Origin: Catenovulum sediminis | GTDB lineage: Bacteria; Pseudomonadota; Gammaproteobacteria; Enterobacterales; Alteromonadaceae | Direction: 5' to 3' | NCBI RefSeq assembly: GCF_007289895.1 | Contig: NZ_CP041660.1 | Location: 1,860,001 to 1,924,000 of the forward strand | DNA length: 64,000 nucleotides | Part shown: positions 3,128-53,476 of the stretch, piece after piece | Layout of the letters: each line of letters begins with the position of its first letter | How positions within the stretch are numbered: position 1 is the stretch's first letter | Made by a program: the position numbers and the translations under genes | Notes under the pieces: model-generated | Databases searched by the model: none | Told to the model about the DNA's origin: nothing | What the model saw: the letters and a program-made list of their open reading frames with translations, nothing else

Positions 3128-5026
3128 ATGAATCAGAGATTTACTTTAGCAACGCTTGCTTTAACAAGCTTGTTATTAGCTGTTTCTTCACAGGCAAATA
3201 CATTACAAAAATTAGAAAAAAACCAAATTGAAGATGAAGGAAATACAAAAGGGGTTTTAGATCAGCCAACCAATATAGAAGACATTCAGGTTGATAAAAA
3301 TATTCAACGTCAGGCGGATTCTCAAATTCAGCAAAACATCCGGTTTAAGTTAAATAGTATCAATGTTCAGGGCAATCAAACTTTATCAAATGAAGAAATC
3401 ATTAAAGTGGCGAAACCATATGCAGGGAAAATGGTGACGTCAAACGAGTTAAAATTATTAGCACAGCAGATCACTCAGCTTTTTCATGCAAAAGGATATA
3501 CAACATCTCGTTGTGTGATACCGGCACAGCAGATTAAAAATGGTGTTGTGATGTTGCAAGTAGAAGAAAACAAATTAAATCAGATTCATATCCGCGGTGA
3601 AAACAGCTTTGAATATGATAAGAAATTATTTCTCCGCCATTTAAATGATTTAACCGGTAAAATTATTCATGCGCCTACATTAAAGCAAAGATTAGCCCGA
3701 TTAACCTTTTTGCCTTCTGCACGCATCACACCAAAATTACAAAGTGCAGGTTTTGGCAAAACTGATTTGATATTGCATATTGAAGACGTTAAAGCGACCA
3801 AGTTACTTTCGTTATACAACAATGCATCACGTTTAACAGGCGATCTGCGATTAAATTTAAGTGGATTATTTGTTAATCCTACGGGCAGTGGTGATTATTT
3901 GCAGTTAGGGGCAAGTATCGACCCAGCTGAAAGCAAAAACTTTTCTTCAATTACCGCCAAATATGCAACACCTTTCGGCAATGAAGGGGGGCGAATCAAT
4001 GTGCAATATGCCGATATTCGCTATCGAGTTTCAGATGATATTATTGACTCATCTACCTTTGAAATAGGCGGTTCTAGTCAGTTGCTTAAACTCACATTTA
4101 ATAAACCGCTGGAATATGGCAATGCCGCCCGTTGGGAGGTTGGTGTCGAGCATAAAGTAACGGCTAACGAACAAATTCAGCATGTTAATTTTAACGAATT
4201 GGTACCCGTTGTTAATTTAGACGAGTGCCCAACGGGTGAGATTGTAGAACAGCAAGGTGTGAATTATTGTGTTTTTGATGACGCAAATTTGTTGGCGGGT
4301 TTTAAATGGTTAGATACCGAAGAAACCATTGTGATGCTTTCAGTTGCCGTCAGTGATGAATATAAATATAACTTGTTTGACCGAGCTGCATACACTCAAC
4401 TTTCAGCTAAGTTCAGTAAAGCTTTAGAAGGCGCATTTGGTGGGCTCACTCAAGCACAAATTAATGATAAATTTAAGAATAAAAATGCCCAGACTTCAAA
4501 CAATGAGATCGTGACTTTAACTGGTCCAGTGGGGAATGATGCTCTGATGCAAGCGGATTTCTGGAAGTTATACCTTGATTTAACGCATTACAGCCGCTTA
4601 TCTGAGAATTCAAACTTAATTGTCAGCAGTCATTTTGAATATAGCCCAGAAAAAGCGATACCTGGCTCTTACAAATATGGCGCTGCAGATTCTGGTATCT
4701 GGGGGGGAGATATTGATATTTCCTATCAATATATTTGGAATTCAAATTGGCAAGCCTCTGTTGGTTATCATGTAGAAAGTGCGGTTAACTTTACATCGGA
4801 AAAAGACTATCCAGATGCGGATGGTGATGGCAAGGTGCGACATTTAACCTGTAATTTAAAAGAAGTTGAAGTAAATGCATATTTTGCCTGTACCGTGAAT
4901 TATCCCTATATTCGAACGACTTATGATTCAGGAGCTCATCGTTTGAGCGCAACATTAAGAACACAACCCAAAACGTTTGAATCACGCGAAAATGCGTTAT
5001 CACTGGGTTATGTCTATCGCTTCTGA
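3128..5026 (+). CDS. ShlB/FhaC/HecB-type two-partner secretion outer-membrane transporter (TpsB)
   Basis: A 632-residue protein with a cleavable signal peptide (about residues 1-23), a polar linker, then two POTRA-like domains (about 75-210) containing the typical FKLNSINVQGNQTLS strand and a conserved A-K-G-Y-T-T-S segment. The rest is an Omp85-superfamily 16-strand barrel ending in a terminal aromatic residue (LSLGYVYRF), the usual C-terminal signature. TpsB proteins move a TpsA partner across the outer membrane. No classical TpsA haemagglutination domain is visible here; the truncated repetitive protein at the left edge is the obvious candidate cargo (inference). It is a little longer than typical TpsB proteins (about 550-600). 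Confidence 0.85.
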   Translation: MNQRFTLATLALTSLLLAVSSQANTLQKLEKNQIEDEGNTKGVLDQPTNIEDIQVDKNIQRQADSQIQQNIRFKLNSINVQGNQTLSNEEIIKVAKPYAGKMVTSNELKLLAQQITQLFHAKGYTTSRCVIPAQQIKNGVVMLQVEENKLNQIHIRGENSFEYDKKLFLRHLNDLTGKIIHAPTLKQRLARLTFLPSARITPKLQSAGFGKTDLILHIEDVKATKLLSLYNNASRLTGDLRLNLSGLFVNPTGSGDYLQLGASIDPAESKNFSSITAKYATPFGNEGGRINVQYADIRYRVSDDIIDSSTFEIGGSSQLLKLTFNKPLEYGNAARWEVGVEHKVTANEQIQHVNFNELVPVVNLDECPTGEIVEQQGVNYCVFDDANLLAGFKWLDTEETIVMLSVAVSDEYKYNLFDRAAYTQLSAKFSKALEGAFGGLTQAQINDKFKNKNAQTSNNEIVTLTGPVGNDALMQADFWKLYLDLTHYSRLSENSNLIVSSHFEYSPEKAIPGSYKYGAADSGIWGGDIDISYQYIWNSNWQASVGYHVESAVNFTSEKDYPDADGDGKVRHLTCNLKEVEVNAYFACTVNYPYIRTTYDSGAHRLSATLRTQPKTFESRENALSLGYVYRF

Positions 5027-5037
5027 GCAAGCTGATT

Positions 5038-5685
5038 ATGATCAGTAACAAAATTTTTATTATTGGTTTGCCTCGCACCGCTACAACTAGTGTGTGCTTA
5101 GCGTGCTTAGATCTAGGCTTCAAAACAGCACATACGGCCTATACAGAGCAGGCATTTAATGAAGCTCAGGTAATAGCTGACACACCTGCTTTTAATGACT
5201 ATGCTGTACTGGATAAACACTATGGCGATGCTAAATTTATCTATTTAGAGCGAGACGCATCGCAATGGATACCTTCAGTACAGCAACTTTTGTTACGTAT
5301 GTATGAAAACCTGATGCGCACAGATGGTGGATTTAATCCGCATTTAAAACGTTGTTACAAAAGTGTCTTTGCGCCATTTAATAAAATCAATATTCAATCT
5401 GCAGACTTTCTACATGATTGTTATCTGCGACACCAAACAAGCGTTGAGCAATATTTTTCCGGCCAGCCTGATAAGCTTTTAACTATAGATGTCACTCATC
5501 CATATAGTTATTTAAAGCTCGCAAATTTTTTACAAGTTGAAGCGGGTGAACAGGAAACATTTAAGCATATGAATAAGCGAGGCAAGGTTACGGCTTGGAA
5601 GCAGATAAGCCACCCGTTGAAAATTGAAGCTACACGAAACGGTAAAGTCGACAAATTAAAATTTCTAACTGAATTTTCTGTGTAA
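5038..5685 (+). CDS. Sulfotransferase family protein
   Basis: A 215-residue protein that begins almost at once with the 5'-phosphosulfate-binding loop, GLPRTATTS (residues 9-17), and has a 3'-phosphate-binding-like segment KFIYLERDASQW near residues 63-74, as in PAPS-dependent sulfotransferases. Residues 80-140 are helical and include aromatic and basic residues suitable for an acceptor pocket. It starts 11 bases after the transporter gene on the same strand. Modification of an exported protein or glycan is plausible but not shown. The enzyme is short but contains both PAPS motifs. Confidence 0.75.
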   Translation: MISNKIFIIGLPRTATTSVCLACLDLGFKTAHTAYTEQAFNEAQVIADTPAFNDYAVLDKHYGDAKFIYLERDASQWIPSVQQLLLRMYENLMRTDGGFNPHLKRCYKSVFAPFNKINIQSADFLHDCYLRHQTSVEQYFSGQPDKLLTIDVTHPYSYLKLANFLQVEAGEQETFKHMNKRGKVTAWKQISHPLKIEATRNGKVDKLKFLTEFSV

Positions 5686-5726
5686 ATCCGTATGATAGCG
5701 CAACGATTTATCAATTAACGAATGTC

Positions 5727-6299
5727 ATGTTTGAACTTAAATACCAAACTCCTTTTGCCTGGACTGAAGCTGTATTAGCTGATTTTGATACTTTTTTACA
5801 GGATCACGCCGCCGCAGAGAAAAAAGCCTCCGGTATGGCTTTGTCAATGTTATCCCACTACCCAGACCGGACTAAATTAGTCAGGGCTATGGCAGATTTG
5901 GCAATTGAAGAGCTCATTCATTTTAAAGAAGTTATTAAAATTCTGGAAGAAAGAAAAGTGACTCTCGGGAATGATCAAAAAGATCCATATATTCATGAAA
6001 TTAGAGCCTTGTTTCGCAAGGGGACGGATGTGTTTTTTCTCGATAGGTTATTGGTTGGTGCTGTGATTGAAGCGCGTGGTTATGAGCGTTTTTCGTTAGT
6101 CGCGCAAGCTTTACCAGCAGGCAAAGAACAAGCCTTTTATCAACAAATAGCCGACTCTGAAAACAATCACAAAAATCTATTCGTTGAGTTAGCCTACGAA
6201 TATTTTGAAAAAAGAATAGTTGATCAGCGTCTTGAAGAAATATTGATAGCAGAAGGGGAAATCTGTGCAAGACAACCGTTTAGAGCTGCCTTACATTAA
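5727..6299 (+). CDS. miaE: tRNA 2-methylthio-N6-isopentenyladenosine(37) hydroxylase MiaE
   Basis: A 190-residue ferritin-like non-heme di-iron monooxygenase that hydroxylates the isopentenyl group of ms2i6A37 in tRNAs reading UNN codons, using O2. Visible ligands: Glu in the DHAAAEKKASG helix, the EELIHF motif (E-x-x-H) near residue 72, the EARGYERF motif and the DSENNHKNLF motif. The short length agrees with the compact MiaE form found in many gammaproteobacteria. It stands between the export island and the PEP-CTERM locus and is probably monocistronic housekeeping DNA. Confidence 0.93.
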   Translation: MFELKYQTPFAWTEAVLADFDTFLQDHAAAEKKASGMALSMLSHYPDRTKLVRAMADLAIEELIHFKEVIKILEERKVTLGNDQKDPYIHEIRALFRKGTDVFFLDRLLVGAVIEARGYERFSLVAQALPAGKEQAFYQQIADSENNHKNLFVELAYEYFEKRIVDQRLEEILIAEGEICARQPFRAALH

Positions 6300-43799: not shown

Positions 43800-45311
43800 T
43801 TAGCCTTGATATTTGCCTGCATGCGTTTCATTAACTGTTACCAGTAATTCATTTTGTATCAACCAGTTGAGAATGTACTTTGCTTTATCTGGTACTGTAT
43901 GTATAGAGAGTTGAGCGTACAATTGTGCGGCAGCAAGCGCTTGATCAGGTAATTTTTTTAAGAATGAAGCGATCGCAAAATCGGCTATAAAACTAAATGC
44001 TTGGGTAAAATTGGGGTGTTGGATTGCATCTACTGCCTCAATAAACTGACCGGTGAGCGCCGCGGTTTGTATATATCGGATTTTCGTTGATTTAATTAAC
44101 ATACTATTCGCGGTAATTCTTTCAGGCTCTAACCTGTTTTTATCTATGTTATCTATGTTATCTATGTTATCTGATTTTTTAGGTAATTGTTTTACTTTGA
44201 CTCTGTTGTCAGCATCACGTTGCCAAAATCCAGTTTGAAAGTAAGGCGCGCCTTGTGCATAAAAATCGTCTGCCCATTGTTGATGTTGCCGAGCGGATTG
44301 GGTGATCAGTTGTTGATAATAGTCTTTTGCCAGTTGGGTATTGTGTGGCTTTTTAAGTAAAGTATTAACCACAATGGCTGCCGATATTGAGGTTTGTAAG
44401 GCTTTTTCCACACCAGATGAAGATAAAGGGTCTAAAGCTAATGCGCTTTCACCAATCATTATCAGTTGGTCGGATATTGCCTGCGTGCTGTAGTAACTTG
44501 TCGCATCTACGACAGATATTTTTTTGATTGCCTGCAGATTACATATCAGTTGTTTAAGTGCCGGTTGTGTCTTAGCTAAATCGAGCAATAAATCATTTAC
44601 CACGCGTGAGAAGTAATTTTTTTGCTGCGTAGCGATATGTTTTTGATAGTAACTTGCATCAACAAATAGCATCAGGTTGAAGCGCTTATCAGGTAATGCC
44701 ATACCCCACAGCCAACCATGCGAGAAAGCTTTGATAAAGGGCACTGCGTTTTCGTTAAAGGGTAAGTAGCTTACGAGGCATAAGGTTTTGCGCGTATTTT
44801 TTTGCACTGTTCCGCGGCAAGCTCGGGCACGTCCACTCGCATCAATTAGCCATTTGCAATTGATTTGTTGCGTTTGGGATTGATGCAAGACCGTCAGTGA
44901 CCAGCAGGAATCCGTTAATTTCGCTTGAGATAATAATCTATGCTCTAACTTTAATTGCACACCGGCAGCGACAGCATGATTTAACAATAAATAATCGAAA
45001 TCTGAGCGTTTTATGATGATCCCCGGTTTTCCTGCCAGCTCGCGCCGTTGTATTTTGCTGCCGGGCCAGTGAATTTCGATTGACTGGCAGATAAATTTTT
45101 TACTTGCCTGAAGCGCTTCTGTTAAGCCAAGTGTTTGCATATGGTGCCAGATACCCGGGCTCAATGACTCGCCAATATGTTCTCTTGGAAATTTTTGACT
45201 GTCGATAACACAAACTCGATGGCCATATTTTTGCAGTTGCGCAGCGCATACCGAGCCAGCTGGTCCTGCGCCGACTACCACAATATCAAAATTTTGGTTT
45301 TGCACTGTCAT
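43800..45311 (-). CDS. FAD-dependent monooxygenase (LodB/QhpG-like), quinocofactor maturation candidate
   Basis: A 503-residue flavoprotein. The dinucleotide fold is VVGAGPAGSVCAAQL (about 11-25), then FPREHIGESLSPG, and the C-terminal FAD site around MIGESALALDPLSSSGVEKAL. This layout matches the tryptophan-halogenase/geranylgeranyl-reductase-like group that includes LodB and QhpG, which hydroxylate the Trp precursor of cysteine tryptophylquinone. It is about 130 residues longer than LodB, with a helical C-terminus. A 9-bp tandem repeat gives DNIDNIDNID near residues 380-390. It overlaps the radical SAM gene by 4 bases (ATGA). Confidence 0.82.
   Translation of the reverse strand: MTVQNQNFDIVVVGAGPAGSVCAAQLQKYGHRVCVIDSQKFPREHIGESLSPGIWHHMQTLGLTEALQASKKFICQSIEIHWPGSKIQRRELAGKPGIIIKRSDFDYLLLNHAVAAGVQLKLEHRLLSQAKLTDSCWSLTVLHQSQTQQINCKWLIDASGRARACRGTVQKNTRKTLCLVSYLPFNENAVPFIKAFSHGWLWGMALPDKRFNLMLFVDASYYQKHIATQQKNYFSRVVNDLLLDLAKTQPALKQLICNLQAIKKISVVDATSYYSTQAISDQLIMIGESALALDPLSSSGVEKALQTSISAAIVVNTLLKKPHNTQLAKDYYQQLITQSARQHQQWADDFYAQGAPYFQTGFWQRDADNRVKVKQLPKKSDNIDNIDNIDKNRLEPERITANSMLIKSTKIRYIQTAALTGQFIEAVDAIQHPNFTQAFSFIADFAIASFLKKLPDQALAAAQLYAQLSIHTVPDKAKYILNWLIQNELLVTVNETHAGKYQG
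44141..44172. repeat. 9-bp tandem repeat, about 3.5 copies, inside the flavoprotein gene
   Basis: TATCTATGT repeats from 44141. In the flavoprotein frame it codes D-N-I units (DNIDNIDNID) in a linker. Because the unit is 9 bp, copy changes keep the frame. Confidence 0.9.
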
Positions 45312-46672
45312 ATTAAACGTTCGGCTTTAACGCTGCTTAATTTAACGTAAACTTCCATACAGTACTGTAGCCAACCACGCACAAAATCACAGGCAACACG
45401 TTCACCGTTTAGTACTTCATGGTGGCACCCTCCGCCACATTGATATCTTGCCCAGCAAGTATTGCAAGGGGATTGTTGATGCACATGGCGTTGTTGTAGC
45501 CACTTGTTTTGCTGCAGAATATCAACGCCCAATTCAAGTTCACCCATCGCGGCTTGTGGTTCATCGACAAAGCGGTGGCAGGCAAATAAATTCCCCTCAG
45601 CTGATACCCCTAAGTAACCGGCACCAGCGCCGCAAGGGTAAGGCCTGTGCGTACCTTTAGATATTTCTTTCATTGCATTTAATATGTTGGCAAATGCATA
45701 TCTTTCACCGGCGAGTGTTTTTTCGACAAAAGCGTCGCCGCATTCAATCATTTGACTGAGCATATATTGAAGTTCAGCAGTATGCATTTCATCTTGTCCG
45801 GTCGGAGACTTCAACATGGGAGAAAATCCGACTGAATGAAACCCTAATGCTAGGAAGTCATCTAAATATTCTTTTAGCTGCAGGTTTCTGGGGGTGACAG
45901 TGACACGTACCGAAACCTGCATTTTGTTTTGTATGTTAAGTAGCGGTTGTACATTTTTTATAATAAGGGCAAAACTGCCCTTCCCACTTTTAAGCGGGCG
46001 CAGGCTGTTATGGGTTTGTTCGGTACCATCTAAACTCAATGTGACCGCAAAGCCATACTGTTCAAAAAAGGCGGCATCTGCTGCGGTTAACAGTGTGCCG
46101 TTTGTGGTAACAGCAAAACTAAAGCAAACACCTTTTTCTTTAGCCCGACGGTTCGCATACTGTGTTGTTGCGTACAAGACCTGACGGTTTGCCAATGGTT
46201 CTCCGCCCATAAAGGCTAAGTTGAGTTTTTCGCCTTGACTGCTATTTGCCAACAAGCGATCAACTGCTTTTTTCGCGGTTAACAAAGTCATATTTTTTGC
46301 ACTTCCACCAAAATCGCCTTGTTGGGCATAACAATATGTGCAACCTAAATTACATTTTTGTGCGATTGCCAAAGATAAAGCTTTTAGTGGCGGAGATTGA
46401 ACTGGTTGGTCATCAATAAAAACGCTTTTGTGCAGACCTAATTGATTGAATAATTGTGTCTCTTGGCCCTGTCGCACTGCGTTTTGCAACGCATGGTATA
46501 GCTGTTGGTCAATATCAAATAGCTGACTGCCATTAACCACAAATAAATGATTTTTATTGTGGCTTTGCCATGTATGTAAGTGACTGGACTGTGGTGCTGA
46601 AAGCTGCATATAACTTTCACCTGCACTGCTGTTTTGCGTTTTGGGATAAAACTTAATCGGTACATTAGACAT
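45308..46672 (-). CDS. Radical SAM/SPASM peptide-modifying enzyme (QhpD/PeaB-like candidate)
   Basis: A 454-residue protein with an N-terminal domain of about 95 residues, then the radical SAM cluster Cys107-x3-Cys111-x2-Cys114 (KCNLGCTYCYA). The SAM glycine motif FMGGEPL follows. The C-terminal SPASM region supplies many Cys: PCGAGAGYLG, LFACHRF, CNTCWARYQCGGGCHHE, CDF and YCME, for two auxiliary Fe-S clusters. This matches maturases that build thioether links in peptides, such as QhpD of quinohemoprotein amine dehydrogenase. It lies 20 bases after the LodA-like gene. The natural substrate is unproven: LodA-like protein or the small protein at 50466 are candidates. Confidence 0.85.
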   Translation of the reverse strand: MSNVPIKFYPKTQNSSAGESYMQLSAPQSSHLHTWQSHNKNHLFVVNGSQLFDIDQQLYHALQNAVRQGQETQLFNQLGLHKSVFIDDQPVQSPPLKALSLAIAQKCNLGCTYCYAQQGDFGGSAKNMTLLTAKKAVDRLLANSSQGEKLNLAFMGGEPLANRQVLYATTQYANRRAKEKGVCFSFAVTTNGTLLTAADAAFFEQYGFAVTLSLDGTEQTHNSLRPLKSGKGSFALIIKNVQPLLNIQNKMQVSVRVTVTPRNLQLKEYLDDFLALGFHSVGFSPMLKSPTGQDEMHTAELQYMLSQMIECGDAFVEKTLAGERYAFANILNAMKEISKGTHRPYPCGAGAGYLGVSAEGNLFACHRFVDEPQAAMGELELGVDILQQNKWLQQRHVHQQSPCNTCWARYQCGGGCHHEVLNGERVACDFVRGWLQYCMEVYVKLSSVKAERLI

Positions 46673-46692
46673 GCTTGACTCTTTTATTTTTA

Positions 46693-48972
46693 TTATTCGG
46701 CGTCACGCCCGCCAATTTGAAATTTAAGTAACGCTTCCCAATCCATAAACAGATCTTGATAGTTAATTAAGCGGTTGTCTTTATAATCGTCGACAACATA
46801 TTGACCGGTTCGCTTTTTCTGCATCCAGTTGTCACCTTGACTCCCACCATTGGGAGCAGGTTCGACATTGACGTAATCAGGTCGACTGGAAGCCCAGTAA
46901 TAACATACACATTCGCGAAAATCATTTTGCCAGGGAGAGCATAACCCTTGGGTGAGTTCTCCCGGTTCTGCTAATGCTTCGTTAATAAGGGTCGAACCTT
47001 CCTCGAAAAAATTCCTAACTTCCAGTTCTTTAGTTATGATTTGATCTGCTGGTAAGTTAGCGAGTACTTGCTTATTCAGCATTTTTTCTTTCGTAAAGTA
47101 ACACTTTAGTTTTTGACCGGCATGTTTCCAGATATAAGCCAGTGTATTTGACCATTCTAAGCTGACCACACCATCTGGATTATCATCTGTTCTTAAGGGT
47201 TCGGTGCTGGTTCCATCCGCTGAAGGGCCAATTGCTTGTACGACAACAGGCCAATTTGTGATTTCGCCATCTTTTTCAATGTCAAAACTCAATAGCCGGC
47301 GACCTTGTAGATCCGCATATTCAGCGTCGGCTTGTAAAACATAATTATCATGTTCTACTAATGTGATACCAACAAAAGCGCGTTTCCAGACACTTCGAAA
47401 GTCAAATTCTAAACCGGGACAACAGTTACCAACCGATGAATTTATATGCGTGTTTGGCGGGTTGCTTTGTCCGCGATAGTGCAGATGTGCGGTTAAGTTT
47501 TTGGGGGTTAATTGGCCTGTATTTTCAACAGGGAAATCACCGAACATAGCGTCTTTACCGGCATTTTTGATTAAGTCTATTTGCCGGTAGGTTAGCGCTA
47601 AATAACGAGCATCGGCACCCGACATCATGGCAGGCATCTTGCGTCGTCCTTTGTCTGTTAAATCGGCTACTTCATCGGGTTTGCGTAACAAATCATAAAA
47701 CCAAGGCGGTATACCTGCTTCCATCGCAGTATAGAGTTGTTGATGTAATGCGGTAATTGATAAAGTATCAAGTGAGTGAGGTGCCATGATGGGTTGAAAA
47801 GCACGACCGAGATCTTCAGAGTCGTTTCCAACCATAGTATCCGCGTGGTTTGGTCGTCCTTTAACTGGATCGCCATTTAATACAGATAGATTCATAAATC
47901 GGACGGTTTCATAGGCGCGGCGCACTATGTCCTGCGCTAATGACAAAGCCGCACTTTGCTGGTTTTCAATATCCGGACCTAATAACACTTGCTCTAAATC
48001 ATCTTGTACCGTGCGCACAAACTCGGAATCAGGTGCAAATATTGGCGGTGACGAGCAAAAGCGGGCTTTCGCAGAGTAAGCGACATGACCTGCTTGATCA
48101 GTCAGCTCTATCGTAATGATGCCATCACATGCATCATCTAAATAACCACGAGCAGGTTGTGGTTCTTGATAATAATTAAAGTAAGGTGCTTTTCCGTAAG
48201 CAGCATACAAGCCTTGTGCCAGTGTGTTTAATGTTGAGTCGTTGTCTGTATATTTTCCGTTCCACAATCCTTTTTCACTGTCGTATACGATGCGTTCGGG
48301 TGGGATTTCAATGCCTGAATAAGCAACCCCCCCCATTTCTTGCGGTTGAAAAACATTCGGTAGCTCTTTTGTCGGTGTGCTACCGTATACTAAACCTTTA
48401 CCAGGTGTGTATCTAAGTCTTATTTCTGGGTGTGTTTTGTTTGGTTTGATAAATTGAATTTTGCCGAAAGGTATTGATTTGGGCAGACCATTTTCATCCT
48501 TAATGAAATGTGGGCTGTAGCCATTTAATGCGTATTGTTTATGATCGCTAATATCGGTTAATTCGGCGGTTACTTTGTCATTTTCATCTGTCGTTCGGCG
48601 GTATACTTTATAATTGCCAGCTTTAACATGCCACTTTACCGCTAGTGAAAAGTGTTTTAGCAGGTGCGTATCAAGCGGGGATAGCTTTTCTTCTCCATTT
48701 TCTTCGATAACCGCAAAGACTTCGAGAAACGGAGCAACGGGCCTTATTTTATTATTGTCTTTAAAGTTTGGTGGTTCGTCTGATGCAGGCAGCGTTTCTG
48801 TTATTTCACCTGTTTGAGTATCTACAATAAAGGTTTCAGCACGTTTTATTTTACGAAAATCGAGCGGTGCTTTGGGATCATGCTTTATTTCATAGTTATC
48901 TAATGGTTTTTCGGAAGAGCCCATCCGAGCAATTGCCATCGCCGGCAGAATAACAATTTTATTTAATTTCAT
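46693..48972 (-). CDS. LodA/GoxA-like quinoprotein (CTQ) amino-acid or amine oxidase
   Basis: About 759 residues from ATG 48972, which overlaps the ferritin-like gene stop (ATGA). It opens with MKLNKIVILPAMAIARMGSS, the LodA-family start, and continues with blocks such as VAPFLEVFAVIEENG, SGIEIPPERIVYD and GYLDDACDGIITIEL. The motif PWQNDFREC (Cys688, with Asp684 four residues before) has the Asp-x3-Cys spacing of the CTQ cysteine in LodA. The Trp partner may be Trp693, Trp716 or Trp745. A CCPGLEFDFR block is also present. Such enzymes make H2O2 and are often antimicrobial. No Sec signal. Substrate is not predictable. Confidence 0.88.
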   Translation of the reverse strand: MKLNKIVILPAMAIARMGSSEKPLDNYEIKHDPKAPLDFRKIKRAETFIVDTQTGEITETLPASDEPPNFKDNNKIRPVAPFLEVFAVIEENGEEKLSPLDTHLLKHFSLAVKWHVKAGNYKVYRRTTDENDKVTAELTDISDHKQYALNGYSPHFIKDENGLPKSIPFGKIQFIKPNKTHPEIRLRYTPGKGLVYGSTPTKELPNVFQPQEMGGVAYSGIEIPPERIVYDSEKGLWNGKYTDNDSTLNTLAQGLYAAYGKAPYFNYYQEPQPARGYLDDACDGIITIELTDQAGHVAYSAKARFCSSPPIFAPDSEFVRTVQDDLEQVLLGPDIENQQSAALSLAQDIVRRAYETVRFMNLSVLNGDPVKGRPNHADTMVGNDSEDLGRAFQPIMAPHSLDTLSITALHQQLYTAMEAGIPPWFYDLLRKPDEVADLTDKGRRKMPAMMSGADARYLALTYRQIDLIKNAGKDAMFGDFPVENTGQLTPKNLTAHLHYRGQSNPPNTHINSSVGNCCPGLEFDFRSVWKRAFVGITLVEHDNYVLQADAEYADLQGRRLLSFDIEKDGEITNWPVVVQAIGPSADGTSTEPLRTDDNPDGVVSLEWSNTLAYIWKHAGQKLKCYFTKEKMLNKQVLANLPADQIITKELEVRNFFEEGSTLINEALAEPGELTQGLCSPWQNDFRECVCYYWASSRPDYVNVEPAPNGGSQGDNWMQKKRTGQYVVDDYKDNRLINYQDLFMDWEALLKFQIGGRDAE

Positions 48973-50435
48973 GAACGCATGCTCCGTGCTAATTTGTGTG
49001 CTTCTATGACGGTATCCAGCCAATGCAAGGTTTCGTTGTCTATATTTTCCATCGCATGTAGATAATTTATTTGTTGTTGATCTTTTTCGTCGAGCCAGTC
49101 GAACAACCAAGCTCTAATTTCTTTGCACGCGGCAAAAATATCGCGATATTGTAACCAGCAACTAAGTTCACTGGCGGGCAACTCTAAACTGTATGGCATT
49201 TGAAATGTAGGGCCGGCGGGTCTGAACGTGTCTTCATTATCCATGCCTGTATGCAGCGGACTACGCGTAAGAATATCTGAAATGCTTTTCAGATTATACA
49301 TTTCTTTAAAGGCATTGTGCATGACGGCCTGATAATTACCCGCTCCATTGTTGGCATTTACACCTCGAGCTAGACGAAATGTGTGGGTTAAAAAAGTTAA
49401 TAAAAGGCGATAGCGCAAATCGAATAAGTTGGCCCACTTAATACTAATCGGATGTGTTATCTGGGTACTAGTGCCAGATAAATCGCCACTTTGTTGTTGA
49501 ATATGATCAAAGGTTGTCGGGTTGACGGGCAGTGCTTTGTAGGGTTTTATCGGGCTGTTTTCTGGAAAGTGTTGTTTATATTCTTGGTAAATTTTTAAAA
49601 AGCGGTGAAAGTGAGATTCTTCAGTCGCGGATTTAGGCGCTTCACCTTGTTCTGCGACTTGCTCTAATGCTTCTATCATGTCATCTCGTGTGGCGACCGG
49701 AACAATAATGACATCTGCCGTTGTTGGGCAGGTTTTTACCGTTTTGCTTTTACTGCCTTGTAATTGGTTTGACGCTTGTTCGCCACTGGGCATACCATGA
49801 TTACAAGACCATGCTGCCCATTCTGCTTGATAGGCGTATGTCTCAGGATGAAAATCGTCTTCCGTAATACGGTTGGGATCTTTTAAGATTGCCAGAATTG
49901 TCTTAAATAATGCTCCAACGGATTTAACTTTATCTTTTGGGGGCGTGGGCCCGTGCTGCAATTTGTCACAAATTTCTCGGCAATAGTGTGCTTCATTCCA
50001 CTCTTCGGGGGCTTCTGCATAAACATATTTGGCCAGTGAATTAAGCGTGAGGGGCTCGAGTTCAAAAGGAAATGGATAAAACTCATGATCCCACGGATAG
50101 TCATTGCGTTCCATGCTGATAACACCGCCCATCAGGGTTATCGCGTTTTGTACTGTAATTAAGTGGCCCATTTCTTCTTTGGCGATGCTGAGAATGGTTT
50201 GCTGCCAACGCCGTACCATCTCTCTTTTGTCTGGTGGTACTTGTGGCCCGCCCAATGAGTATGCCGCATATAGATACTGCACCATCAGTGCATGCTCGAT
50301 ACCTGCATCAATATCGAGCAACATAAGCAAATAGTCACGCCAGGTAAATTGTCCCGGTTTGCCCAGGTTGATGGGGAGTTTTTCGTTACGCATATCTGGA
50401 AAATTCAACAAATGTTTGCTGTGTTGGCTGGCCAC
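48969..50435 (-). CDS. Ferritin-like (VioB N-terminal-type) protein
   Basis: A 488-residue protein starting at GTG 50435 with AAGGAG 7 bases upstream. The four-helix ferritin-like part has E-x-x-H ligands: GIEHALMVQYLYAAYS and KEEMGHLITVQNAITLMGG (about 40-105). This is the fold of the iminophenylpyruvate dimer synthase (VioB) N-terminal group. The rest (about 190-488) includes DLRYRLLLTFLTHTFRL, MHNAFKEMYNL and helical segments that may supply further metal ligands. Translational overlap with the LodA-like gene suggests a functional pair. Its reaction here is unknown. Confidence 0.78.
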   Translation of the reverse strand: MASQHSKHLLNFPDMRNEKLPINLGKPGQFTWRDYLLMLLDIDAGIEHALMVQYLYAAYSLGGPQVPPDKREMVRRWQQTILSIAKEEMGHLITVQNAITLMGGVISMERNDYPWDHEFYPFPFELEPLTLNSLAKYVYAEAPEEWNEAHYCREICDKLQHGPTPPKDKVKSVGALFKTILAILKDPNRITEDDFHPETYAYQAEWAAWSCNHGMPSGEQASNQLQGSKSKTVKTCPTTADVIIVPVATRDDMIEALEQVAEQGEAPKSATEESHFHRFLKIYQEYKQHFPENSPIKPYKALPVNPTTFDHIQQQSGDLSGTSTQITHPISIKWANLFDLRYRLLLTFLTHTFRLARGVNANNGAGNYQAVMHNAFKEMYNLKSISDILTRSPLHTGMDNEDTFRPAGPTFQMPYSLELPASELSCWLQYRDIFAACKEIRAWLFDWLDEKDQQQINYLHAMENIDNETLHWLDTVIEAHKLARSMRS

Positions 50436-50465
50436 TTAATGCTCCTTGTTTTTATTTTTTATTTT

Positions 50466-50825
50466 TTATTGAGTGTTGATGGAGAATGACTTTAATTCGC
50501 ATAGCATGGCTTCACCTTTTTGTTCGATTAATCCTGTATGCGGACGATTCGGATCGACAAAAGTGGCAAGGTATTTGACTCTTGTTTCAAAGTCACATAA
50601 AAAACTGATCGACATTTGTTCATTCGGTTTTAAATACACATTATTTGGGTTTGCTCTGACTTCTGTATTACGCCATTTATTTTTGTACCAAATTTTAAAT
50701 GAAGTCAGTGTGTGGGTTTTAGATGCATTAATTAATGCTAACCGCCCTTCATTAAAAAATGTATTGGTAAGCATATCCAATGAGACAAAGTATGATATTG
50801 CGGTATTCCGTGGATTAACATTCAT
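50466..50825 (-). CDS. Small protein at the head of the LodA-like cluster
   Basis: A 119-residue protein with AAAAGGA before the ATG. It looks beta-rich: TAISYFVSLDMLTNTFF, FKIWYKNKWRNTEVRANPNN, FLCDFETRVKYLATFVDPNR. It has no signal peptide and only two Cys (FLCDF and MLCEL). I do not recognise the family. It is 30 bases before the ferritin-like gene on the same strand. It could be a chaperone or a small subunit like that of quinohemoprotein dehydrogenases, but it lacks their Cys-rich composition. Confidence 0.65.
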   Translation of the reverse strand: MNVNPRNTAISYFVSLDMLTNTFFNEGRLALINASKTHTLTSFKIWYKNKWRNTEVRANPNNVYLKPNEQMSISFLCDFETRVKYLATFVDPNRPHTGLIEQKGEAMLCELKSFSINTQ

Positions 50826-50949: not shown

Positions 50950-53304
50950 TTAAATCCCAAATTGATAGGTAAAATTTATGCCTGCCGTTCTCGGTGGTGC
51001 GTAGGATAAAAATGAATAACCAAATACGCCGGAAGCATCAAAGCCATAGGTTGCATATTTTTCATTGCTGATATTTTTTAGCCAGAATGAGGCGCTCCAG
51101 CCTGCATGGTACTGCTCATATGTGAGTCTTGCATTGAACACTTGATAACCATTTTCGTAAGTTGTTGGGTGGTTTGCTAACGAATAGTATTGTTCATCGG
51201 TTAGAGAATAATCCAAACTGGCGCGGATATCAGCCGCGCGGCTGATTTGCCAAGACTTTTGTAGCATCGCGTTGAAAGTGTAGGCGGGTGCTTGTGGGAG
51301 TTTGGTATCCATAGTGCTGCCATCTGGCAAAATATAATCTTGCATTTTTGCATCGAGTAGCGCTATTCCAATATTCAGTGACCAACTATCAGCAGGTAGC
51401 CATAGTGCTTCAAATTCAGTCCCTCGCAAATAAGCCTGTTGATTGGTAATTACCTGAGTTAAACCCTGCAAATCAAACGCCTGATAGTCGTTATAGTCTG
51501 CATAAAAAACCGCACTGTTTAATCTGAGCGTGTGATTGGCAAGCCAGCTTTTAAAACCAATTTCGTAATTATCAATAATTTCATGCTGGTATGGGAGTTG
51601 TTCTACTTTTAAAATTGCTTCAAATGGTGCCGAATAGCCTCCTCCTTTTACCCCGCGTGAATAAGATGCATACCACATCATATTGTCTTTCGGGTGATAA
51701 TTCAGTGCAGTTTTATAAGACCAGAAAGATTCACCGCTTGACCTATCAATAATACCGGTTTTGTCACAGATACCTCCAAAATCCGCAGTCAGCTCATCTT
51801 CAGTGTATTGACCGCCCATTTGTTGGCACTCAGTTTGCTCGGTTAGGCGATCAAATATTCGCTGGTCATCGTATTGTAATAAGATATTTTTAGCGGGGGA
51901 GTGCCGATCGCCTTCAGCTAATAATCGATTGGTGTATGCCATATCACGTGAATCTTTCGTTATCCGCGCCCCTAAGGTAAACACAAGATTGTGGTGAATG
52001 TCATATTCTAATTGGCCAAACAGAGCTTTCGATTCTGTCGTTAAGCTATAAACACTGGAGGGGTAATAATCTGCAATTTCAACCCATAAATGATTTTCAT
52101 AATCGCCCGTTATTTTTAAGTAATTGGCACCTAATAACCATCTAAACGCGCCTGTCTGTTCAGAAAGCCTGAATTCGTGGCTAAATTGATTAGAATCTTG
52201 ATATGTACCAAACCCACATACTGGGTTCGGTGAACCATCACAATCTTCTTCGTAAGTTTTTTCCAACGATTGATAATCAGATAAACTGATGAATTCGAAT
52301 TCTCGCATTTGCCAGCTCAGTTTAATTGTATGTTGCCACATATCGCGCTCAGTTTTGCTATCAGTACGGTCAATATCACTGCTCCATACGTCAAAACCGT
52401 CGGGATCTTTATATCCAAACATGTCGCAGCCTGCACAAGTGTCATACAGGTTATCCTGAGCATTCAGATAATGTCCGCGATTATGATCTTGCGCTTTCAC
52501 ATAAGCCGCTCGGTGTTCGTAAGTTGAGCCCGGTTTGTCATTGGTTTGGTTTAGGCTGGTGGCAAATAAAATATTGAAATCCTCATGTGGGGTCACTAAT
52601 ACTTGTCCACGGATAGCCAATCGATCTGCGCTGATCATATCTTCGCCTATTCTGTTTTTAATATAGCCATCTTGTTTAAGTATCTGACCTGCAATTCTTG
52701 CTGCGATCGTCGAGTTACCACCTCCGATTGCCCCTTCAATTAACTGACGATTAAATGAGCCAACTTCGGCTTCTAAATAACCGGATAAGTTTTGACTTGG
52801 TTTTTGTGTAATAAGATGGACTAACCCCCCAGTTGCATTGCGACCAAACAAGGTACCTTGTGGGCCGCGCAGAATCTCTATCTGTTGGAGATCGTACAGC
52901 TGACTGCCAATTCCCCCCAGTGCACTGATATAAACCTCGTCAACATACACGGCATTTGGTGATTCATTGTGATCTGCAAAGTCATTTTGTGAAGCGCCGC
53001 GGATTGAAATTAAAATATTGTTTGGTGTGCCTGCAATGTCGCTAATATTGACCCCAGGTATTTGATTTGCAATTTGCGCGGCATTATCGTAACCAAGTGT
53101 CTGGATGGCGTCATTACTTAAAGCGGATAAAGAAACCGATACTTCTTGTGGGTTTTGCCGGTTTTTTTGTGCGTTGACTTCTATCACCTCAAAAATCGTT
53201 TCAGATTGCTTTGTTTGTGCAATATTTTCTGCTGCGTTGAGGGGGACGGACATTAAAAAATAGACGATGCTGCCGATAACTTGAGTGGGTTTTAGTGAAT
53301 TCAT
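50950..53304 (-). CDS. TonB-dependent outer-membrane receptor
   Basis: About 784 residues from ATG 53304; earlier in-frame starts would place residues before the signal peptide (VIGSIVYFLMSVPLNA). A TonB-box-like segment IFEVIEVNAQK follows, then a plug domain (IPGVNISDIAGTPNNILISIRG, YVDEVYI, IEILRGPQGTLFGRNATGG) and a 22-strand barrel ending in an aromatic residue (TAGINFTYQFGI). It belongs to the iron-complex/other-substrate receptor group. It lies 125 bases before the LodA-like cluster on the same strand and may be co-expressed. Ligand unknown. Confidence 0.9.
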   Translation of the reverse strand: MNSLKPTQVIGSIVYFLMSVPLNAAENIAQTKQSETIFEVIEVNAQKNRQNPQEVSVSLSALSNDAIQTLGYDNAAQIANQIPGVNISDIAGTPNNILISIRGASQNDFADHNESPNAVYVDEVYISALGGIGSQLYDLQQIEILRGPQGTLFGRNATGGLVHLITQKPSQNLSGYLEAEVGSFNRQLIEGAIGGGNSTIAARIAGQILKQDGYIKNRIGEDMISADRLAIRGQVLVTPHEDFNILFATSLNQTNDKPGSTYEHRAAYVKAQDHNRGHYLNAQDNLYDTCAGCDMFGYKDPDGFDVWSSDIDRTDSKTERDMWQHTIKLSWQMREFEFISLSDYQSLEKTYEEDCDGSPNPVCGFGTYQDSNQFSHEFRLSEQTGAFRWLLGANYLKITGDYENHLWVEIADYYPSSVYSLTTESKALFGQLEYDIHHNLVFTLGARITKDSRDMAYTNRLLAEGDRHSPAKNILLQYDDQRIFDRLTEQTECQQMGGQYTEDELTADFGGICDKTGIIDRSSGESFWSYKTALNYHPKDNMMWYASYSRGVKGGGYSAPFEAILKVEQLPYQHEIIDNYEIGFKSWLANHTLRLNSAVFYADYNDYQAFDLQGLTQVITNQQAYLRGTEFEALWLPADSWSLNIGIALLDAKMQDYILPDGSTMDTKLPQAPAYTFNAMLQKSWQISRAADIRASLDYSLTDEQYYSLANHPTTYENGYQVFNARLTYEQYHAGWSASFWLKNISNEKYATYGFDASGVFGYSFLSYAPPRTAGINFTYQFGI

Positions 53305-53476
53305 AATATTCCATTCTGCCGTGTATTCGCATATCAACCAATATACTTGTTTATGAACTTGTTTATTTAGATTGCTATTTACACACTGGTTGGATTGCTG
53401 TGATAAACTCAAATTACAGTATAGTTAAAAAATGACAGTTACAAAGTGAGTTGGTTTGGGGCGATAGGATCAAAAT

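Follow-up and report, generated by a model that had tools for sequence, protein, structure and literature searches.

A conserved operon encoding a probable oxidase of predicted LodA/GoxA fold together with QhpD-like and QhpG-like proteins

What would a radical SAM/SPASM enzyme do next to an oxidase of the LodA type, given that the Cys-Trp bond of classic LodA is, to our knowledge, made without a radical SAM enzyme? The question is raised by a gene cluster of Catenovulum sediminis, situated in a stretch of 64,000 nucleotides that is here called the window. We consider it probable that the operon encodes a cysteine tryptophylquinone (CTQ) amine or amino-acid oxidase, its cofactor formed from a tryptophan and a cysteine of the chain itself, which combines the LodA/GoxA fold with a maturation of the quinohemoprotein amine dehydrogenase (QHNDH) type, including two Cys-Asp thioethers. 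What was computed is the fold family, the conservation of the operon, the cofactor motif and the likeness of the maturases to QhpD and QhpG. The operon is apparently undescribed, though widespread.

Gene organization and distribution

The cluster consists of five open reading frames, all on the minus strand and compactly arranged according to the ORF list:

43800-45311, minus strand: QhpG-like flavoprotein (503 aa; FAD monooxygenase)
45308-46672, minus strand: QhpD-like radical SAM/SPASM enzyme (454 aa)
46693-48972, minus strand: oxidase of predicted LodA/GoxA fold, fused form (759 aa from ATG)
46876-46941, minus strand: cofactor motif of the oxidase (C678, W681, D684, C688, C690, W693, D699)
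48969-50435, minus strand: PF12902 ferritin-like protein (488 aa; GTG start)
50466-50825, minus strand: small protein (119 aa; 30 bases upstream of the ferritin-like gene; outside the conserved unit)

Overlaps of 4 bases were found at the ferritin-like/LodA-like and the radical SAM/flavoprotein junctions, while 20 bases separate the LodA-like gene from the radical SAM gene, all of which agrees with the close packing of five minus-strand genes described in an earlier note on this DNA. The longest ORF of the oxidase gene begins further upstream, at a TTG. The earlier note had also counted the small protein as a cluster member, and this could not be upheld: neither Pfam nor NCBIfam models matched it at E ≤ 0.1, and tblastn at E ≤ 1 found no counterpart of it in 151 loci, the window itself serving as the positive control. 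As the small protein lacks matches in the relatives, the conserved unit comprises four genes, or five where the oxidase is split. Promoter and terminator scans returned fewer sites than were found in shuffles.

The family was first reached through tblastn of plasmids. No close relatives turned up when single proteins were scanned against genome contigs and viral contigs, and one genome scan contained 210 relatives. The oxidase of Nitrincola alkalilacustris is 70% identical in its C-part to that of the window; Dyadobacter and Flavobacterium are further hosts of the operon. We then considered 80 related genome loci, fetched with patterns that covered parts of the motif (C688 and D699 lay outside these patterns; C678 and C690 were each covered by one of them). 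The radical SAM gene was present at all 80 loci, within 6 kb at 79 and about 8 kb off at one, and the flavoprotein and ferritin-like genes at 77 and 74 of them, respectively. Gene order is mostly one and the same, and the operon is found across several phyla. Such conservation excludes a mere chance neighborhood of the radical SAM and ferritin-like genes, which would have refuted the original proposal, and it supports the idea that a QhpD-type radical SAM enzyme and a flavoprotein act for a LodA-type oxidase, although no chemistry has been shown.

Searches led by the radical SAM protein, and hence not motif-selected, gave 19 matches in 1099 genomes. Either the new motif or the QhpC motif adjoins the radical SAM gene at 18 of these loci, the remaining one being a short contig. 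Eight matches belonged to the new family: four were search centers, one was already known and three were new, all three with the motif. The first two of these searches recovered no member of the new family beyond their own center genomes, and so provide no independent test; the Dyadobacter family search likewise found only its center.

Family and fold of the oxidase

By sequence, the oxidase remains below the thresholds of the known families. It scores 22-24.3 bits against the LodA_C domain (PF18417; 24.3 on the C-part, cut-off 25), 19.8 bits against the LodA equivalog NF038172 (cut-off 600) and 23.1 bits against the GoxA equivalog NF038173 (cut-off 750), and a search of the PDB with its sequence alone gave nothing at E ≤ 0.001. 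Several relatives reach 25-28 bits with PF18417, in matches confined to roughly the final third of the profile. Over 45 genomes, the window family scores 23-28 bits, as against 108-154 bits for classic-type matches. The AF2 model has a pLDDT of 83 overall. All 50 Foldseek matches in the PDB with E up to 0.001 were LodA or GoxA (3weu, E 2.6e-11), and VIA gave LodA/GoxA a Z of 14.3-15.6 over 423-443 residues, with the next unrelated row at 7.5. The oxidase, as modeled, has the LodA/GoxA fold.

Besides the predicted fold, which extends over the whole chain, the window family shares with classic LodA/GoxA the motif PG[ED]LT...PWQxD...C, the CTQ Cys and Trp and a flavoprotein partner. It differs in having two additional cysteines, a flavoprotein that is QhpG-like, a radical SAM gene at 80/80 loci and an oxidase that is often in two chains, i.e. 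one fused chain in the window and two adjacent genes in many relatives. A likeness of the N-terminal part to the QHNDH alpha subunit (Z 7.0) was rejected, being no better than that to antibody or T-cell-receptor domains. The oxidase does not match the QHNDH gamma subunit (PF08992), which was also absent from the window's genome; the control genomes were silent too, though the same model matched in other genomes.

The radical SAM enzyme and the flavoprotein

Both putative maturases match the models of the QHNDH system best. For the radical SAM protein, the best NCBIfam model is QhpD (TIGR03906), with 307 bits and an unmet cut-off of 453, and the best PDB sequence match is 5wgg. All 20 relatives scanned match TIGR03906; the PapB, SCIFF and nif11 maturase models are matched as well, but their best E-values are weaker. 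C107, C111 and C114, together with eight more cysteines, are invariant in 20 radical SAM sequences. The protein is predicted to be a Cys-Asp thioether synthase acting on the oxidase, without chemical evidence so far. The flavoprotein exceeds the QhpG cut-off (NF049967; 275 bits, cut-off 240) and stays below those of LodB (159 bits, cut-off 400) and GoxB (129 bits), both of which are named as modifying enzymes in the discussion section of PMC7876137, the part of that source relied on here. Its relatives behave alike, as 18/18 scanned match QhpG, and LodB and GoxB with weaker best E-values. The prediction for this FAD monooxygenase, equally without demonstrated chemistry, is that it hydroxylates W693.

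The earlier note had suggested profile searches for these families and a union of both maturase classes with the oxidase. Of the profiles, QhpG is met, QhpD is the best model while under its cut-off, and LodA is sub-threshold with a matching fold. A QhpD-like radical SAM enzyme plus a flavoprotein are indeed present, but there is a single flavoprotein, QhpG-like rather than LodB-like, which means that LodB is not joined here with QhpD and QhpG.

The cofactor segment and its likeness to QhpC

The pattern C.PW..D...C.C..W.....D was present in 95/95 C-parts of the family, which thereby keep the LodA-type CTQ pair C688/W693 and two extra Cys/Asp pairs, C678/D684 and C690/D699. The CTQ cysteine of LodA is C516 according to the available part of PMC4417212. 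The LodA sequence PWQAD...C aligns with PWQND...C of the window, albeit with weak scores (E 0.02-0.3), and by this alignment and residue counting C516 falls on C688. In a classic relative the Cys and Trp are likewise 5 apart, which places the CTQ Trp on W693. Among classic LodA relatives, a cysteine was found at the C678 position in 0/24 and at the C690 position in 0/22. Another candidate for the CTQ cysteine, C517 (N-C-x-PGLE), has a Cys in 90/95 members and was rejected, because both Embleya sequences have Ser and Mesorhizobium has Phe at this position, and because the PDB alignment puts LodA C516 on C688. The AF2 model is unreliable at residues 684-696 (pLDDT under 50), largely covering the motif, and the geometry could not be read from it.

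In QhpC, as stated in the accessible portion of PMC8172795, thioethers connect Cys27-Asp33 and Cys41-Asp49, and CTQ is formed by Cys37-Trp43. The two extra pairs of the window family correspond to two of the three Cys-Asp/Glu thioethers made by QhpD in QHNDH: common to both is a Cys-x5-Asp pair and a Cys...Trp-x5-Asp pair around the CTQ segment. The spacing of the second pair is off by one, with Cys41 of QhpC two residues before the CTQ Trp and C690 three before W693. A counterpart of QhpC Cys7-Glu16 is absent, as the upstream stretch of 40 residues has no Cys at a fixed position, and a leader peptide was not identified in the window family. Unlike QHNDH, the window family thus has the CTQ segment inside a LodA-type chain, no small leader-bearing gamma subunit, no PF08992 match and no third crosslink. 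None of qhpA, qhpB, qhpE and qhpF is among the genes identified at the window cluster, where they were not sought with models. The possibility of a QhpE-like protease was rejected: C25 peptidases lie near four loci and S1 peptidases near two, all plasmid, and the 80 genome loci gave no match to these queries, so that the peptidases are not part of the unit.

One looser pattern matched the window family and QhpC only (152 records; 4.05 million six-frame residues), but it was drafted after seeing both. Compared directly by hhalign, QhpC and the window family scored 18.4, which is not above the column-shuffle null (maximum 25.2), and their profile link is significant only via classic LodA. We regard it as an even question whether LodA-type oxidases and the QHNDH gamma subunit inherited their CTQ segments from a common ancestor, in which case the window family would be a living intermediate, with the body of LodA, a thioether cage like that of QhpC and a maturation of the QhpD/QhpG kind.

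A proposed maturation and its alternatives

The chemical steps, crosslinks included, and the substrate are inferred. The radical SAM/SPASM enzyme would make the C678-D684 and C690-D699 thioethers in the cofactor segment, whereupon the QhpG-like flavoprotein would dihydroxylate W693, C688 would join W693, and oxidation would yield CTQ. The mature enzyme may then oxidize a primary amine or amino acid, releasing ammonia and H2O2.

Alternatively, the radical SAM enzyme could itself form the Cys-Trp bond of CTQ, or a different thioether, e.g. from C688 or C690 to W693, and none of Cys-Asp type. It is true that the 15 residues preceding W693 contain three cysteines in every one of the 95 members, and that thioethers of several kinds are made by SPASM relatives of QhpD (PMC8172795, as far as the source was available). 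We nevertheless find this unlikely, as the Asp partners D684 and D699 are invariant (95/95) with QhpC-like spacing. Furthermore, classic LodA makes its Cys-Trp bond without any radical SAM enzyme that we know of.

Less credible still is a separate ribosomal peptide as the target of the radical SAM enzyme, with the oxidase as a tailoring enzyme or simply a neighbor. The PapB and SCIFF maturases, whose models are also matched, act on peptides, and the 119-residue protein lies upstream in the window; this protein is, however, not found in the relatives, the core genes of the window overlap or sit within 20 bases of each other, and the radical SAM gene adjoins a Cys/Asp motif in all but one of the radical-SAM-led matches. 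The search did not extend to small ORFs that might be conserved in other parts of the related loci. The earlier note had left the choice between an extra crosslink and a modified peptide undecided. The crosslink is favored here, since two QhpC-type Cys/Asp pairs are conserved whose cysteines are both missing in classic LodA relatives, and since the core-gene junctions, in the window only, leave no room for a precursor peptide. Finally, a LodA relative that lacks CTQ and is degenerate or regulatory, its crosslinks purely structural, would fit equivalog scores far under cut-off, but it is scarcely tenable with the LodA-type Cys and Trp, and the Asp conserved in tryptophylquinone enzymes, present in 95/95 and the QhpG-like flavoprotein kept in all but three loci.

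Should the proposed CTQ maturation hold, radical SAM thioether chemistry would be at work close to the end of a roughly 760-residue oxidase chain, and it would do so without a small, leader-bearing substrate of the kind that QhpC represents. Classic LodA, the window family and QHNDH would then form a natural series for mutational tests of whether the crosslinks are needed in building a tryptophylquinone. The window family also makes it possible to test for a link between two CTQ systems that have been described as convergent; if common ancestry is true, that published view is wrong for these two. The oxidase family, presumably unassayed, is hidden in the annotated plasmid records consulted behind the gene names "hypothetical protein", "radical SAM protein", "tryptophan 7-halogenase" or "FAD-dependent monooxygenase".

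The ferritin-like protein

The fourth member of the unit carries a PF12902 domain (100 bits, cut-off 22). This is all it has in common with VioB, for which it had been named in the earlier note: the ferritin-like part of that description stood, but the VioB model TIGR04492 gave only 15.4 bits against a cut-off of 1250. Its profile had no PDB sequence match. The closest fold was 3hl1 (weak, E 1.6e-3), followed by ferritins, and E47, E87, E88, H91, E141, E265 and H275 are identical in 79/79 ferritin-like sequences. Its role is inferred: the protein, probably dimetal, may act next to the oxidase, be it on H2O2, on the product or in maturation. In fungi, PF12902 ferritin-like genes are found beside lodA/lodB-like genes (PMC4417212, consulted in part); for these clusters lodB-like and ferritin-like genes are mentioned, and the term "radical SAM" is absent from the paper's main text, to which this statement is confined. 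In five divergent plasmid clusters, the PF12902 domain and the CTQ-bearing part are found on one chain.

Gene content of the cluster

The cluster consists of four tightly packed genes and a small fifth, all on the minus strand.

Genes of the cluster in transcription order (window positions)
50466-50825, minus strand, small protein of 119 aa
48969-50435, minus strand, ferritin-like protein (PF12902 in Pfam, 100 bits)
46693-48972, minus strand, LodA-like protein, 759 aa (in Pfam/NCBIfam nothing beyond sub-threshold matches to LodA_C, LodA and GoxA)
45308-46672, minus strand, radical SAM/SPASM protein (best full model QhpD, 307 bits against a cut-off of 453)
43800-45311, minus strand, flavoprotein (QhpG, 275 bits against a cut-off of 240)

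Two of the junctions are 4-base overlaps and one is a 20-base gap, with the small protein 30 bases off. The cluster described in the earlier note is confirmed, except for the small gene and the label VioB-like for the ferritin partner. A TonB-dependent receptor gene (50950-53412) lies upstream on the same strand, its end separated from the small protein by 124 bases.

Fold and cofactor motif of the oxidase

The oxidase has the LodA fold according to an AF2 model that combined the window protein with 45 fused homologs (mean pLDDT 83, pTM 0.89). In the PDB, Foldseek gave 50 matches at E <=0.001, every one of them LodA or GoxA (E 2.6e-11 to 4.1e-8); by VIA-align, LodA and most GoxA entries have Z 15.0-15.6, a single GoxA mutant has 14.3 and the next row 7.5. 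The model pLDDT is below 50 at residues 684-686 and 689-696.

The motif C.PW..D...C.C..W.....D, in the window C678, W681, D684, C688, C690, W693 and D699, was found in 95 out of 95 C-parts of the new family (80 genome loci, 14 plasmid loci and the window). As the patterns used for fetching genome loci covered only [GS]LC[SA]PW..D[FY] or C[YF]YWA....P, C688 and D699 are free of selection, while selection for C678 and for C690 came from a single pattern in each case. In a weakly scoring alignment of LodA to the window protein, CEPGDLTKRMACPWQADFFNC, LodA D512 and C516 land by residue count on D684 and C688; C516 forms the cysteine tryptophylquinone (CTQ) of LodA together with W581, as stated in PMC4417212. 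In one classic LodA relative (L108), the second W of WWPAQRP lies at +5 from the cysteine at the CTQ position, which is the spacing of C688 to W693. No cysteine was found at the C678 position in 24 classic LodA relatives (near-identical pairs included), nor at the C690 position in the 22 of these that could be parsed. The classic loci, of about 3.4 kb, showed no radical SAM gene of the new-family kind, which is only weak evidence of absence because the flanks are short.

Comparison with quinohemoprotein amine dehydrogenase

PMC8172795 gives the thioethers of QhpC, the gamma subunit, as Cys7-Glu16, Cys27-Asp33 and Cys41-Asp49, and the CTQ as Cys37-Trp43; according to PMC7876137, QhpD forms the three thioethers and QhpG afterwards dihydroxylates Trp43. 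QhpC sequences from six genome loci (two of them, L098 and L101, near-identical) and two PDB chains show LC-x-PME[AS]D-LYGC-xD[PA]C-WWPAQ-xx-D. The spacing of C678-D684 in the new family is identical to that of Cys27-Asp33, and W693 to D699 equals Trp43 to Asp49, whereas C690-D699, the counterpart of Cys41-Asp49, is one residue longer, and Cys7-Glu16 has no counterpart. A joint pattern, composed after both families had been seen, gave 123 matches in 4.05 million six-frame residues from 152 records, i.e. 110 in the new family and 13 in QhpC, with none elsewhere in these records, classic LodA loci included. Some genes present in several records were counted repeatedly, e.g. the window gene, which is also in L001, L109 and L142.

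By employing the radical SAM profile, and not the motif, as the lead, we searched 369, 385, 150 and 195 genomes (1099 in total; E limits 1e-80 and 1e-60), scoring only the best few candidates per genome. The 19 hits fell into two clearly separate tiers. The new motif adjoins the radical SAM gene in all eight hits of the upper tier (706-803 bits), namely four search centres, a repeat of L084 and three newly found loci (L153, L156 and L157), each with the motif. In the lower tier (272-325 bits), the QhpC motif adjoins the gene in 10 of 11 hits; the remaining one (L148) is a short contig from a genome with QhpC on another contig. The closest relatives in these searches are therefore QhpD, and a Cys/Asp-rich CTQ segment adjoins the radical SAM gene wherever this could be assessed. 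The 20 radical SAM members that were scanned all matched the QhpD model, but also PapB, SCIFF and other peptide-maturase models at weaker best E-values; the 18 flavoproteins likewise all matched QhpG, and less strongly, by best E-value, LodB and GoxB. The ranking of models for individual members was shown only for the two window proteins. The earlier note took the gene set to suggest either an extra crosslink in the oxidase or a modified peptide; of these, the crosslink version is supported.

Profile comparison joined the new family to classic LodA (96.7%, E 3.8e-10), and QhpC both to classic LodA (score 38.7, 80.5%, E 1.3e-5) and to LodA plus the new family (score 42.0, 90.4%, E 1.4e-6), with none of 200 column shuffles scoring as high in either case. 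QhpC against the new family alone was negative, since its score of 18.4 was exceeded by at least 5 of 100 shuffles (maximum 25.2). PMC7876137 describes the cofactor as reached convergently through divergent strategies, although it already treats QhpC Asp33 and GoxA Asp678 as corresponding. Whether the CTQ segment has a common origin is, in our judgment, evenly balanced.

Among the open-access matches listed, no title or abstract beginning reported a radical SAM maturase together with a protein of LodA type, subscription papers and preprints being largely outside this scope. New here are the family, the exact bonds predicted for it and the link it makes from one CTQ system to the other.

Distribution and conservation of the operon

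As a unit, the cluster is widespread. Among 72,556 plasmid records searched by tblastn, 20 contained relatives, with at least 80% of the query covered in one place in 14, the genera including Rhizobium, Bradyrhizobium, Mesorhizobium, Novosphingobium, Mycetohabitans, Embleya, Streptomyces and Nostoc. When a single genome was scanned for each species, 217 pattern matches resulted, of which 210 were relatives by tblastn, and the best 80 were kept; by record title they include Proteobacteria, Bacteroidota, Planctomycetota, Verrucomicrobiota, Acidobacteriota, Gemmatimonadota and myxobacteria. With profiles based on the proteins of the window and the plasmids, the radical SAM gene was found within 6 kb of the oxidase in 79 of the 80 loci (about 8 kb off in L050), the flavoprotein in 77 and the ferritin-like gene in 74. 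Two flavoprotein misses are at contig ends, and L050 has none in the stretch examined; five ferritin-like misses (L019, L025, L029, L036 and L041) have little or no upstream sequence, an explanation that does not apply to L028. In 68 of 72 complete loci, the genes run from ferritin through oxidase and radical SAM to flavoprotein. The apparent misorder in L084 and L094 comes only from the counting of a long stop-to-stop frame, and the flavoprotein lies upstream in L018 (divergent) and L038. The oxidase was scored as fused in 51 of the 80 loci, a count that takes in loci cut at contig ends, and is otherwise two genes or broken up.

Among relatives of the window genome, only 2 of 147 genomes matched, its own and one that is N-terminal only and 31% identical; none of the seven listed same-genus genomes matched in this search. 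With the gene absent from most of these relatives, the cluster looks horizontally acquired.

In Azospirillum argentinense (L014:9434-11504), a short radical SAM ORF (263 aa) is followed by an IS3 transposase, and the CTQ-bearing part was not found in this stretch; it is apparently a broken cluster. Ordinary LodA/GoxA-type genes occur a few kilobases from the new cluster in L006:1-1400 and L049:15132-18221, so both oxidase kinds can sit near each other. Rhizobial clusters are followed by a tyrosinase gene in L008 (13880-15361) and by tyrosinase and multicopper oxidase genes in L010 (13346-17271). Four plasmid clusters of alphaproteobacteria (L004, L005, L007 and L017) have C25-type cysteine peptidases nearby, and two of them S1 serine peptidases as well, possibly in a QhpE-like processing role.

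The ferritin-like protein and divergent clusters

Residues E47, E87, E88, H91, E141, E265 and H275 of the ferritin-like protein are identical in 79 of 79 sequences, which suggests a putative dimetal site. Its model (pLDDT 86) is closest in fold to the ferritin-like 3hl1, with a weak E of 1.6e-3, followed by ferritins and a manganese catalase. The ferritin-like part is tied to the oxidase by single chains with both PF12902 and a LodA_C match, found in divergent plasmid clusters (type C) of Streptomyces, Rhizobium etli and two Nostoc (LodA_C over its cut-off in one of the four), and by a chain with PF12902 and the motif in R. sophoriradicis. It may handle H2O2, use the product or help in maturation. 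Ferritin-like genes adjoining lodA/lodB-like genes in fungi have already been published (PMC4417212).

The divergent arrangement on Streptomyces, Rhizobium and Nostoc plasmids (L011:10921-12810, L012:10967-12742, L013:9962-11758, L015:7407-9302 and L017:10938-12692) has the LodA N-part, the radical SAM gene and then a chain uniting the CTQ-bearing C-part with the ferritin-like domain, and a flavoprotein with a weak match nearby. In Nostoc L015, the LodA N-part is present only within a ferritin-like frame at 4461-6095, which scores 226 bits with the profile of that part and precedes the radical SAM gene; this is possibly a second fusion.
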